Position numbers and translations under genes: made by a program. From contig CATPBC010000299.1 in NCBI GenBank assembly GCA_955652195.1, positions 1-12,302 on the forward strand: DNA of 12,302 nucleotides, written 5' to 3'. Below are positions 8,553 through 11,055 of the stretch, one piece after another. Numbering within the stretch: position 1 is the first letter of the stretch; each line of letters opens with the position of its first letter. The stretch is from an uncultured Xanthobacteraceae bacterium. GTDB lineage: Bacteria > Pseudomonadota > Alphaproteobacteria > Rhizobiales > Xanthobacteraceae. Below the pieces are notes generated by a model. That model was not told the DNA's origin. It made no database searches and saw nothing but the letters and a program-made list of their open reading frames with translations.

Positions 8553-9419
8553 TCAGATCACCACGACTTTGGTGCCGACCTTCACGCGCTCATAGAGATC
8601 CGTGACGTCGTCGTTGCGCATGCGGATGCAGCCGGACGAAACGTTCGTGCCGATGGTCCAAGGCTCGTTCGAGCCATGGATGCGATAAAGGCTCGAGCCG
8701 AGATAGAGAGCGCGCGCGCCGAGCGGATTATCGACACCGCCCGGCATAAAGCGGGGCAAATCGGGCCGCCGCGCGATCATTTCCGCCGGCGGCCGCCAAT
8801 CGGGCCATTCCCGCTTGGCGGTGACGCTTTTGACGCCAGACCATAAAAATCCTGGCCGGCCGACGCCGATCCCGTAGCGCAGCGCCCTGCCGCCATCCTC
8901 GACCAGATAAAGAAATTTGTTGGTCGTATCGACAATGACGGTGCCGGGCGCTTCGCCGCCGCTATACGCGACCTGTTGGCGGAAAAATTTCGGATCGACC
9001 GCATGATCCGCAGCATCGGTCTGGTTCGGCGCCGCATAAGCTTGCGGCGGATAAGCAGTAGAGGTGTTGCCCGCTGGCGCGCCGCTGTATTGCGACTCCG
9101 GTGGGCGAAAAGCGTGCGACAACATTATCGGCCCGGCGAAAATCGCTGCAAAGAAATCATGGATGCCGGGATTTGGCGACTGCGGCACAGGCTGCGGCGC
9201 GAGAGATTGGGCTTGCGACGCTGGCACGGGCTCGCTCCGCGACGCGCCGAAAAACTGCCGAGCACCGGGCTTTGGCGCATAAACGACAGATTTTTTCAGC
9301 GGCACTGGGCGATCGGACTGGCTCGTACCATCGGGCGAATAAGACGGACGCAGCGATTGTGCGAAGGCCGAGCCGGATAGCGCGCTCGCCAGGATCGCCG
9401 CGATGAAAATGTGCCGCAT
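8553..9419 (-). CDS. L,D-transpeptidase (YkuD domain), periplasmic
   Basis: A 288-aa cell-wall enzyme. An N-terminal Sec signal peptide (MRHIFIAAILASALSGSAFAQ, cleavage after about residue 20) leads into a Pro/Gln/Ala-rich linker of about 130 residues and then a YkuD catalytic domain (157-288). The active site is complete: His248 in YRIHGSNEPWTIG and Cys264 in SSGCIRM. It forms 3-3 peptidoglycan cross-links or attaches outer-membrane proteins to peptidoglycan; which one cannot be told. No LysM or other binding domain is seen. The ATG follows GAG at seven bases. Its upstream region holds a long hairpin (9458-9529) preceded by a perfect TATAAT on the minus strand, so the mRNA probably begins within that hairpin. 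Confidence 0.92.
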   Translation of the reverse strand: MRHIFIAAILASALSGSAFAQSLRPSYSPDGTSQSDRPVPLKKSVVYAPKPGARQFFGASRSEPVPASQAQSLAPQPVPQSPNPGIHDFFAAIFAGPIMLSHAFRPPESQYSGAPAGNTSTAYPPQAYAAPNQTDAADHAVDPKFFRQQVAYSGGEAPGTVIVDTTNKFLYLVEDGGRALRYGIGVGRPGFLWSGVKSVTAKREWPDWRPPAEMIARRPDLPRFMPGGVDNPLGARALYLGSSLYRIHGSNEPWTIGTNVSSGCIRMRNDDVTDLYERVKVGTKVVVI

Positions 9420-9457
9420 GGCCGTACTCGTTACACAGGCCCGTTCGCAATCGCGCC

Positions 9458-9529
9458 AGTGCGGTGGATTTGAAGTTCCTACAGTCAGTCGGAATCTCGC
9501 ATAGGAACTTCAAATCCAAAAACCGCACT
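9458..9529 (-). repeat. Long hairpin A, at the probable 5' end of the L,D-transpeptidase mRNA
   Basis: Inner arms TGGATTTGAAGTTCCTA (9465-9481) and its exact complement (9502-9518) give 17 perfect pairs. Outer arms AGTGCGG (9458-9464) and CCGCACT (9523-9529) add seven more, with a one-sided bulge of four A (9519-9522). The loop is 20 nt (9482-9501). Read on the minus strand the order is outer arm, T bulge, inner arm, loop with CCGAC, inner arm, outer arm, the same layout as hairpin B at 9545-9620. Confidence 0.85.
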
Positions 9530-9532
9530 AGG

Positions 9533-9542
9533 ATTATATATT
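9533..9542. promoter_or_regulatory. Back-to-back -10 boxes between the two hairpins
   Basis: The 15-nt AT-rich spacer 9530-9544 reads TATAAT on the minus strand (9538-9533) and TATATT on the plus strand (9537-9542). Each would start a transcript at or near the foot of the adjacent hairpin. No convincing -35 hexamer was found on either side, so promoter activity is inferred. Confidence 0.4.
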
Positions 9543-9544
9543 TG

Positions 9545-9620
9545 CTAGGGTCCCTTTGATTCCGAAGTTCGCATGAAAGCATGCCGACAAAGCGTGCGAA
9601 CTTCGGAATCGGGACACTAG
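9545..9620 (+). repeat. Long hairpin B, diverged inverted copy of hairpin A
   Basis: Inner arms GATTCCGAAGTTCGCA (9558-9573) and its exact complement (9595-9610) give 16 perfect pairs. Outer arms CTAGGGTCCC (9545-9554) and GGGACACTAG (9611-9620) pair with one mismatch. A TTT bulge (9555-9557) lies on the left side only, and the loop is 21 nt (9574-9594). It shares with hairpin A, read on the opposite strand, a CTAG foot, the T-rich bulge, GATT..GAAGTTC, ATG or TATG after the arm and CCGAC in the loop. Confidence 0.85.
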
Positions 9621-9682: not shown

Positions 9683-9757
9683 GCCGGCTTAGTCGTACCT
9701 TGTTCGTCGAGTTACGGTTGATTTTGTTTAAATGCCGAACGTGTTGGCTAAGCCGGC
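9683..9757. other. Widely spaced inverted repeat at the end of the MFS gene
   Basis: GCCGGCTTAG (9683-9692) and CTAAGCCGGC (9748-9757) are perfect 10-bp complements 55 nt apart. The right arm includes the MFS stop codon. No T tract follows, so it is not a standard intrinsic terminator. The rest of 9621-9747 holds only a small palindrome TGTTT-GGT-AAACA (9661-9673). Confidence 0.4.
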
Positions 9758-10941
9758 CGGCGGATCAGCACAAAACAAAGCAATGCGACCGCGGCGAAAC
9801 CCGCCACCAGCGTCAAACCCACCGCATCGGAGGCGCGATCGGCAACATAGGTCACCACTACCGGCGCCGCCGCTTGCACCACCAGATAAGGACCGCCGAT
9901 CCGGCCCATGAGGCGGCCGTAACCCGCGGCGCCAAACAAAGCGAGCGGGACCGTACCACGGGCGATGGTCAAAAGCCCGTTGGCCATGCCGTACATGATC
10001 GCGAAGACTGCCGCGAGCGCTGCGGAAAAAGGCAACAGCGCCAACAGCACGAAGGCCGATACCAGAAGCCCGACCGCAAAGCGCGCGGTCCATAACGGAT
10101 GGAGCCGCCGCGCGAACGATAATTCGCACAGGCGCGCCAAGACTTGAGCCGGACCAAACAACATGCCGATTGCCACGACGGTCGCGGCCGTCAGTCCGAA
10201 GCGCTGGAAAATTGCGAGGAGCTGCGCCGACAGTGCCGAGGGCACGAAGGCATAGGAAGCGAACCCGGCCGCAACCAGGACGAAAGCAAAACCGTGTGAC
10301 GGTACGAAAGCTTTGGTCGGCTTTTCACTGAGCGCTGCACCGCGCGGCGCGCCGCCGGCATGCTGACGCGGCAGCGCGAAGGCATGCAGTGGCGCGGCCA
10401 GGCCCACGAGCAATGCCGCATAAATGAGGTACGTGCCGCGCCAGCCGACCGCTTCGATGAGAAATTGTGTCGCCGGCCAGCTCACGGTCGAGGCGAAACC
10501 GCCGGCAAGCGTCAGCACCGTGATCGGCGAGCGTGCGGCGCTGCCAAAGATGCGCCCAAGGGTGGCAAAGGCTGGATCATAGAGCGAGGCCGCCATGGCC
10601 ACGCCGATCGTAATCCAAGCGGCGAAGTAGCTTGCCACGCCGGGTGCCCAGACCAGACCGGCAAGCCCCAAGGCGCCGATCAGCGAGCCGACCGGCATCA
10701 CGACATGGCCGCCGAGGCGATCGATCGCGCCACCGACATAACGCGAGCACAGCCCACCGACGAACAACCCGACAGAAAATCCGGCCATGGTGAAGGATCG
10801 CGACCAGCCGTGATCGGCCGCTATCAATGGCACCGTCAGCACCGGCGGATAGAACAGCGCGCCCCAGGACAGAATCTCGGTAACGCCCAGCACGCTCACG
10901 GCGCGCCAGGGACCGAAAATGAATGCACTGGGGCTTGGCAT
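9748..10941 (-). CDS. Major facilitator superfamily transporter
   Basis: A hydrophobic protein of 397 aa with the usual 12-helix layout: two six-helix halves joined by a polar loop near residues 195-215 (ALPRQHAGG...SEKPTKAFVP). The first helix segment, VLGVTEILSWGALFYPPVLTVP, and the GWSRSFTMAGFSVGLFVGG that follows are typical of a family of uncharacterised proteobacterial MFS proteins. The loop-2 motif is represented by GGAIDRLGGHVVMP. The substrate is unknown. I chose ATG 10941, six bases after a GGA; GTG 10971 would add ten polar residues with no clear ribosome site. It stands alone; the next gene on its strand is the L,D-transpeptidase, over 300 bp away, so co-transcription is unlikely. 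Confidence 0.88.
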   Translation of the reverse strand: MPSPSAFIFGPWRAVSVLGVTEILSWGALFYPPVLTVPLIAADHGWSRSFTMAGFSVGLFVGGLCSRYVGGAIDRLGGHVVMPVGSLIGALGLAGLVWAPGVASYFAAWITIGVAMAASLYDPAFATLGRIFGSAARSPITVLTLAGGFASTVSWPATQFLIEAVGWRGTYLIYAALLVGLAAPLHAFALPRQHAGGAPRGAALSEKPTKAFVPSHGFAFVLVAAGFASYAFVPSALSAQLLAIFQRFGLTAATVVAIGMLFGPAQVLARLCELSFARRLHPLWTARFAVGLLVSAFVLLALLPFSAALAAVFAIMYGMANGLLTIARGTVPLALFGAAGYGRLMGRIGGPYLVVQAAAPVVVTYVADRASDAVGLTLVAGFAAVALLCFVLIRRPA

Positions 10942-11055
10942 TTTTAGTCCGACATTCTGAGCGTGAGCCACGCAAGCGCGGCCTGGCCGGGCTCGACAGG
11001 GACCCGGAAGCCTAAAGCACCGATGTCATGGATTACCGACCTGCCCGTACCTGGC

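Follow-up and report, generated by a model that had tools for sequence, protein, structure and literature searches.

A paired-hairpin repeat inserted at CTAG between genes in alphaproteobacterial genomes, with ends resembling those of IS630 elements

The locus and the anatomy of the repeat

The window analysed here is a whole stretch of 12,302 nucleotides from an uncultured Xanthobacteraceae bacterium, in which two long hairpins lie between a YkuD (L,D-transpeptidase) gene (8553-9419, minus strand; Pfam PF03734) and a long minus-strand open reading frame (9748-10971) that by eye is a putative MFS transporter. The layout is CTAG, hairpin A, CTAG, 13 nt, CTAG, hairpin B, CTAG, which comes to 165 bp with the feet included. 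The parts are as follows.

9456-9620, plus strand: whole element (doublet) with outer CTAG feet, oriented A to B; limits taken from an alignment of 33 copies and from empty and nested sites
9456-9459, no strand: left outer foot, CCAG in the window copy and CTAG in the family
9460-9481, plus strand: outer arm of hairpin A, the left terminal repeat TGCGGTGGATTTGAAGTTCCTA, with IS630-like spacing
9482-9501, no strand: loop of hairpin A, with a GANTC at 9492 in the window copy
9502-9527, minus strand: inner arm of hairpin A, in which a 4-nt A/T insertion separates tip from core
9528-9531, no strand: CTAG foot of A on the spacer side; in other copies such inner feet are sites of nested insertion
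9532-9544, plus strand: 13-nt spacer, AATCATAWANTTG in the family consensus and GATTATATATTTG in the window copy
9545-9548, no strand: inner CTAG foot of B
9549-9573, plus strand: inner arm of hairpin B, with a TTT insertion at 9555-9557 and GATTC (a GANTC) at 9558
9574-9594, no strand: loop of hairpin B
9595-9616, minus strand: outer arm of hairpin B, the right terminal repeat, reading inward TGTCCCGATTCCGAAGTTCGCA
9606-9610: GANTC of the B outer arm, at position 11 from CTAG
9617-9620, no strand: right outer CTAG foot, from the family alignment

An earlier note on this DNA, made from the letters alone, had described two homologous hairpins in inverted orientation, and these are real. The arms of A (9465-9481 and 9502-9518, 17 nt) and of B (9558-9573 and 9595-9610, 16 nt) are 100% complementary, and the 201-nt region folds at -95.3 kcal/mol compared with -55.6 +/- 4.3 for 200 shuffled versions (z -9.2; 0/200 as good). 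The bulges that the note had claimed are likewise present, AAAA in A and TTT in B, each on the inner arm of its hairpin, a polarity that recurs in 92/92 units counted. CTAG feet hold for the family as a whole but not for the left outer foot of the window copy, which reads CCAG; this copy also has G replacing T at 9549. Its GANTC sites lie at 9492, 9558 and 9606. As for the CCGAC said to be shared by the two loops, it is there as what this copy has of a less strict, near-palindromic motif, about GAG..TGCNGCAA, which by eye the loops of A and B tend to retain across the alignment. A search of the region against Rfam gave no family at the gathering score. The 165-bp element, made up of two hairpins and a 13-nt spacer, contains no transposase gene and is non-autonomous.

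Distribution and insertion between genes

The window's genome, a draft of 3.3 Mb in 511 contigs that is 85% complete, returned 75 BLAST matches to the region. Among the stretches fetched from it were 33 full-length copies, the window copy included, with identities to the window copy of up to 98%; by eye they form two subfamilies, TGCGG and TGTGG. The DNA query matched 21 of 61 genomes, the window's among them (20 of 60 relatives), all of the same family, and none of 24 genomes from other families of the order. Across the class, R1, a covariance model for one hairpin unit, was positive in 21 of 385 genomes. Over a sample of the phylum it was positive in 16 of 398, all 16 of class kinship or closer, the share of the 398 that belongs to other classes being absent from the output. 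In genomes chosen for an IS630 transposase, 13 of 14 had R1 matches, from 3 to at least 150 each, numbers that may exceed the count of units because a palindrome can match on both strands. Scanning the genomes of named species with the spacer pattern gave at least 116 stretches, and among the matches listed are Mesorhizobium, Nitrobacter winogradskyi, Bradyrhizobium, Rhodoplanes, Sphingobium, Novosphingobium, Phenylobacterium, Terasakiella, Phyllobacterium and Acidiphilium. Three queries matched 9, 12 and 9 plasmid records, and nine Roseibium/Labrenzia plasmids were common to all three. On the Roseibium plasmid NZ_CP019631.1 (L244), an SDR oxidoreductase gene (1279-2004) is annotated to end at 2004 and the element match (2001-2167) begins at 2001, so that the TAG of the left foot apparently is the stop codon of the gene.

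Copies lie at many sites in many alphaproteobacterial genera, and as a class the L,D-transpeptidase genes showed no association with them, neighbours being considered without one-by-one annotation. Together the two hairpins make up a single copy of a small mobile DNA element that is dispersed in many alphaproteobacterial genomes.

Comparison of occupied and empty sites allows the limits of the unit to be seen. Upstream of an rpsA-like gene (named by eye), the doublet is present in 3 of the 18 loci compared (G003, G004 and G014) and missing from 15. The filled site reads GGGGGC-CTAG...CTAG-GAGT and the empty loci mostly GGGGCTCGGAGT or near it, the empty sequence deviating by about one base; the three filled loci probably share one inherited event. 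In three genomes (L214, L225, L228) the right foot CTAGGAGT lies just upstream of the rpsA-like start, with the G of the foot within a putative GGAG ribosome-binding site. Nested insertions tell the same story from another side: in L113, L137, L161 and L162 a doublet sits inside the inner CTAG of another, the halves and spacer of the host doublet flank it, and the single CTAG has become two. L204, judged by polarity, is nested as well. CTAG flanks both sides after insertion, and duplication of TA and duplication of CTAG are not separable.

Another way to view insertion is to ask what the flanks were before it. When the element was removed and the flanks were joined, a called gene spanned the junction in 1 of 31 copies of the window's genome and at 135 of 155 random points in the same loci, two of the 33 copies having too little flank to be used. 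This comparison supersedes gene calls made with the element in place, by which 0 of 33 copies lay inside a called gene, since an interrupted gene would look like two fragments. The span of open frames across copies is a weak test because a high-GC genome retains long open frames. The gaps holding copies were tandem in 15 cases, divergent in 7 and convergent in 4, and in 7 one side had no called gene. Over the whole set of junctions in the same loci these orientations numbered 30, 16 and 10, respectively. The element is thus a discrete unit that inserts at CTAG, between genes.

Arm pairing and the inner-arm insertion

A unit finder that sought palindromic arms with CTAG feet, one mismatch tolerated, recovered 393 units in 1.11 Mb of loci, some of them overlapping, and none in 295 kb obtained by plain base shuffling of 40 loci. 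Spacing within doublets was exactly 13 bp in 138 of 163 cases, and 17 further neighbours have one CTAG in common. The spacer is conserved as CTAG-AATCATAWANTTG-CTAG over 133 spacers of modal length, a consensus whose outer letters were set by the search pattern for many loci while the middle was free. Structure played no part in the selection of matches by spacer, which numbered 117: four lay at a contig edge or beside N, and the remaining 113 had both hairpins in 99 cases, one in 11 and none in 3. One stretch of Mesorhizobium sp. 65-26 (L158, 5930-5957) has the spacer and both tips without hairpins and is either a remnant or a chance match.

The two arms of each hairpin differ in length in a consistent direction. 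Among the 92 units of 46 of 54 representative doublets, the arm facing the spacer was longer by 2-5 nt in 92/92 (by 3 in 58 and by 4 in 31), and the outer arm never was. The alignment omits seven of the 54 doublets (five belonging to nested arrays, and L167 and L203, whose units are of unusual length), and the counts of arms and GANTC omit eight, these seven and L204, whose second unit was included in the alignment despite its wrong orientation. Among the eight left out, three fit the rule, L203 lacks the B insertion, and four are reversed on one side because the doublets are nested, which brings a foreign outer end to face the spacer and so makes false pairs. The B unit of L203 (Acidiphilium, 2707-2866), having no inner insertion, is possibly able to move alone. 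A scan of the loci covered with 430 arm sequences gave no autonomous copy in which the hairpins enclose a gene; the single arms that it returned were nearly all halves of imperfect doublets, and the rest were isolated and partnerless.

Compensatory change between the arms, which the earlier note had read from two copies, extends far beyond them. Across 96 units, pairing was kept in 98.2% of 2492 cells and 521 cells were altered on both sides, with double changes in 19 of 26 pairs and a covariation score of 0.534. None of 500 shuffles reached these four values, a fifth measure (further pair types) being reached by 24 of 500, and sliding by one column lowered pairing to 38.5%. The percentage paired leans upward, because the 393 source units had been required to have complementary arms; the BLAST copies and the spacer-pattern copies are structure-independent sets.

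What this covariation constrains is a separate matter. G.T pairs (14) were no commoner than A.C mismatches (15) in 2396 positions, and selection on an RNA of this strand should favour G.T, so the constraint is on DNA, or else the arms are homogenised. Selection on folded RNA, as the earlier note had allowed, is therefore not seen, and copies occupy gaps of every orientation. Arm identity was 97.6% within a hairpin and 79.7% between the outer arms of A and B, which makes binding of a common protein insufficient to explain the palindromes. Candidates for arms that agree within a hairpin while A and B diverge are selection on a DNA hairpin and repeated palindrome correction; a protein-bound cruciform may be one reading of the paired hairpins. 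The general caution is that strong covariation in a hairpin need not imply RNA, since wobble pairs here are no commoner than A.C mismatches.

The strongest of the alternative readings is that of mutation bias. It holds that quasi-palindrome correction at replication rewrites one arm from the other, so that covariation is uninformative about function, and that the element is otherwise an ordinary MITE. It accounts for the gap between 97.6% and 79.7% identity, which binding by a single transposase leaves unexplained, and for the lack of a wobble excess, and it is compatible with an IS630 motor. Correction should nevertheless erase the inner-arm insertion, which is retained in 92/92 units, unless selection against its loss comes to the rescue. 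We regard this reading as a serious contender, at somewhat less than even odds, and the compensatory change may come from palindrome correction in DNA.

IS630-like ends, methylation sites and known systems

Transposase families PF01797 and PF13358 were searched. IS630-type (DDE_3) matches came from 18 loci in 8 of 12 genomes, and at 10 of the 18 a hand-chosen pair of CTAG sites 1.04-1.27 kb apart encloses the gene, the two ends of one of the ten (L257) being unlike each other. An IS630 group with CTAGAGC ends was considered as the partner and rejected, its ends being unlike the doublet. One element of that group (L248 1-1044, G000:C84, and L048) has its right CTAG in common with a doublet in the window's genome. 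In the flanks of L110, L175 and L253 another palindrome (GAGCATGATC..AAAAGTGGAAACCGGTTTTCGG) recurs near CTAG and starts like the CTAGAGC ends; by eye it is possibly a second IS630 MITE.

A closer likeness was found to the group of P0001, a protein of G034 that scores 273.5 bits as an NCBIfam IS630 family transposase (cut-off 100). Elements of this group also lie between CTAG sites. There were 37 P0001-like loci, of which 19 with two clear CTAG ends, and no repeats of one genome, were used and 18 left out. An end of the G097 element, CTAGTGTCCCGAGTCATAAGTTCGCA, matches the outer arm of doublet B at 23 of 26 positions. In the three closest elements (G034, G097 and G014), five of six ends match the B outer arm at 21-23 of 26 and the inner arm at 10-13, the low inner-arm scores arising because the inner insertion shifts the core; the sixth, the left end of G014, agrees with B at 18 of 26 positions and with A at 19. 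The remaining, more distant elements score 9-18 to B. Taking the better of A and B for all 19 elements, 20 of 38 ends scored at least 16, compared with 7 of 470 CTAG half-sites outside elements, although a single form of A served for the half-sites and two for the IS ends. The only two background half-sites above 16 are decayed doublets.

Likeness within single genomes is mixed. G085 carries nine copies of a 1184-bp IS with identical end strings, and by eye these share a core CAATTGCC with the doublets of that genome, whose arms were the best fit of 14 genomes (17/22). The GACATT-type ends of the G073 and G141 elements fit the TGGAG/TGGTCC arms of G136 best (17/22), for 3 of 11 IS elements no genome had better-fitting arms than the element's own, and for the G034 IS its own four sampled arms were the worst fit of 14 genomes. 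IS ends and doublets thus covary in outline only. Relatives of P0001 (E <= 1e-30) occur in 24 of 119 genomes of the family, including a contig-truncated member in the window's genome with 68% identity over 160 aa and a right end matching B at 18 of 26. A candidate cognate IS accompanies the element in the window's genome (truncated), G014, G034, G097, G085 and G223, the single readable IS end of the last, CTAGTGTCCTGAACCGGAAGTTC, resembling the local doublets. Across the class, the element was found in 21 of 385 genomes and the transposase in 13 of 385, with overlap only in the window's genome and G223 under strict filters, which is no more than chance once the window's genome is set aside; and the complete genome G066 has 14 transposase matches and no unit by R1. 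This missing co-occurrence speaks against an IS630 motor, although MITEs can outlive their IS. Two P0001-like elements of G066 (L267, L287) have CTAGTCA ends, similar in type to the IS of the window's genome, and may have a different MITE.

The two kinds of element have a further trait in common. GANTC is the methylation site of CcrM (PMC2229807), and P0001-like elements have it in exactly one end in 14 of 19 cases, while one has it in both and four in neither. Its place is invariably position 11 from CTAG, with A, C, G and T as the variable base 7, 5, 2 and 2 times; several of the 19 are close kin and are not independent. Of seven other IS630 elements, one has a GANTC, at position 9. In 46 doublets, with outer arms searched at positions 9-20, GANTC was present in the B outer arm in 30, in the A outer arm in 2 and in the spacer in 26, and it recurs in B arms in 30-32 of 46. 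Its density was 2.09 per doublet compared with 0.84 after shuffling, or 12.5 per kb against 2.7 in the flanks (46 doublets). A GANTC at position 11 occurs in 2 of 470 background CTAG half-sites, one of them a decayed doublet. IS elements and doublets therefore share an asymmetry besides their letters, since GANTC is one-sided in both.

We consider it probable (about 0.73) that the pair is a MITE, some 165 bp long, which a transposase of the IS630 family (Tc1/mariner-type DDE) mobilises in trans by cut and paste, or did so in the past. The transposase would recognise the outer arms, and the extra 3-4 nt in both inner arms would spoil the spacing of the cut tip relative to the bound core; the inner ends would thereby go unused and the doublet would move whole. 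With its GANTC, the B end would be hemimethylated after replication, which could gate transposition, and methylation of this end may tie movement to replication. Dam sites link the transposition of IS10 to the cell cycle. Extending this to a class-wide, cell-cycle-gated transposon system, in which the IS630 group and the paired-hairpin MITEs keep a one-ended GANTC and hemimethylation sets the time and direction of transposition, is a proposal that we make tentatively and think rather doubtful. If gating were true, each doublet would be a four-ended element with two ends turned off by the inner-arm insertion, CIR repeats would be members of the system, and the alphaproteobacterial cell cycle would possibly be linked to transposition. 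IS630 ends together with a one-sided CcrM site would offer a concrete, testable motor for CIR-type paired palindromes. In the portion of the CcrM literature available to us, such repeats are not mentioned, and a narrow literature search, mostly outside subscription journals, met no report of the family or of its link to an IS.

Another reading makes the doublets cruciform landing pads, kept because IS630 elements are drawn to insert at their CTAG feet and genes are thereby spared. In G085, five of nine IS copies have a CTAG in common with a doublet hairpin and one (L342) adjoins what is by eye a doublet spacer; IS630 copies adjoin doublets in G000, G006 and G026, and nested doublets fit the same picture. 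Since CTAG is scarce, however, the four CTAGs of a doublet make it an expected target through their number, and we think this reading improbable. Equally unlikely, in our judgement, is a MITE of another CTAG-using DDE family such as the IS5 type, its IS630 likeness being due to convergence or shared hosts. The CTAG target is not diagnostic, as MITEPsy1, an IS5-type MITE, uses it too: according to the available text of its description (PMC3189936), its duplicated target is CTAG or YTAA, and an element of the IS5 type is linked with it. The absence of class-level co-occurrence with the IS630 group is also in favour of this reading; against it stand the identity of the ends and the one-sided GANTC at the same position as in the IS630 group.

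A structured RNA kept for its fold, as a pair of 5' leaders or a small RNA, would suit the very stable fold, the paired cells and the double changes, but the earlier note's pair of 5' RNA elements goes unsupported and we consider an RNA reading very improbable, given the rarity of G.T, gap orientations much like those of all junctions, the lack of an Rfam family and the relatives that mostly have no element at the same site. Least probable of all is a REPIN, in which a RAYT (Y1 HUH) transposase copies paired REP palindromes by way of single-stranded intermediates: inverted hairpins, a foot tetranucleotide, an intergenic position, many copies and the doublet as replicating unit are traits of REPINs as far as the source describes them (PMC3116915), and Y1 matches occur in 19 of 61 genomes, but the window's genome (85% complete) has no PF01797 (Y1) match, G028 (100% complete) has 16 element matches and no Y1 match, the repeat is missing from the flanks, of at most some 1.5 kb, of all 20 Y1 loci fetched from relatives, the foot is CTAG rather than GTAG, the hairpin units are of about 75 bp where REPs are given as 20-40 bp in the text available (PMC3733652), and it is a DDE (IS630) element whose ends those of the doublet resemble. 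A RAYT motor was accordingly rejected as a candidate, the Y1_Tnp search of the window's genome and 60 relatives and the flanks of the 20 loci giving no linkage. What stands of the REPIN-like mobile doublet suggested earlier is mobility, shown by dispersal, by a discrete unit and by empty and nested sites; membership among REPINs does not.

A MITE of IS630 type can be set beside several known systems. IS630 and ISY100 duplicate a TA target (PMC2170065, in the part available), and the title of Tenzen and Ohtsubo 1991, as cited there, gives a preference of IS630 for TA within CTAG; these are autonomous elements, whereas the doublet has no gene. RUP of Streptococcus pneumoniae is, in the sections of the review at hand (PMC2229807), similarly small and intergenic, with IS630-like ends, TA insertion and a motor inferred from its ends, proposed to be IS630-Spn1. 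It is of 107 bp with a 9-bp TIR, whereas our element is built of a pair of complete hairpins, so that the end sequence is present four times, offset in the inner arms, and it has a conserved spacer and a methylation site. MITEPsy1 of Pseudomonas syringae, likewise a MITE of small size, has CTAG or YTAA as its insertion site; it measures 100 nt, with a simple 18-nt TIR and a link to ISPsy2, and the accessible text (PMC3189936) describes no paired hairpins. In REPINs and REP-BIMEs a doublet of palindromes is also the mobile unit, with a different transposase class, foot and size. The GTAG and CGTC superfamilies of REPs are palindromic and tagged with a tetranucleotide, as the element is, although the tag is another and the hairpins are much smaller; CGTC repeats prevail in alphaproteobacteria and, within what that source covers in its available part (PMC3733652), were not found beside transposase genes. 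Bru-RS of Brucella, likened here by description, are alphaproteobacterial palindromic repeats of 103-105 bp that the excerpted report (PMC2266754) gives as insertion hot spots of an IS with a YTAR target.

The earlier note knew of no named element with this layout, yet CIR repeats (CcrM-associated intergenic repeats) are described as two long inverted repeats with a linker. They occur in Caulobacter, Brucella and other alphaproteobacteria (Chen and Shapiro 2003, through the parts of the review PMC2229807 that were available, which leaves the mechanism of their mobility open). The element and CIR have in common paired long inverted repeats with a linker, an intergenic and alphaproteobacterial setting, a conserved GANTC and a terminal TA, as far as that review goes. 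CIR are, in the same description, of about 110 bp with GANTC at the hairpin loop, whereas the element is of 165 bp with GANTC mainly in the B arms and spacer, and the window copy shows an extra GANTC in loop A; the element departs from a CIR defined by about 110 bp and a GANTC at or across the loop. CTAG at the four feet and IS630-like ends also set it apart from CIR, which were compared by description only. Taken by its sequence, the build is that of an unusual four-arm paired-hairpin MITE, most likely of IS630 type, whose nearest known counterparts by description are the CIR repeats.
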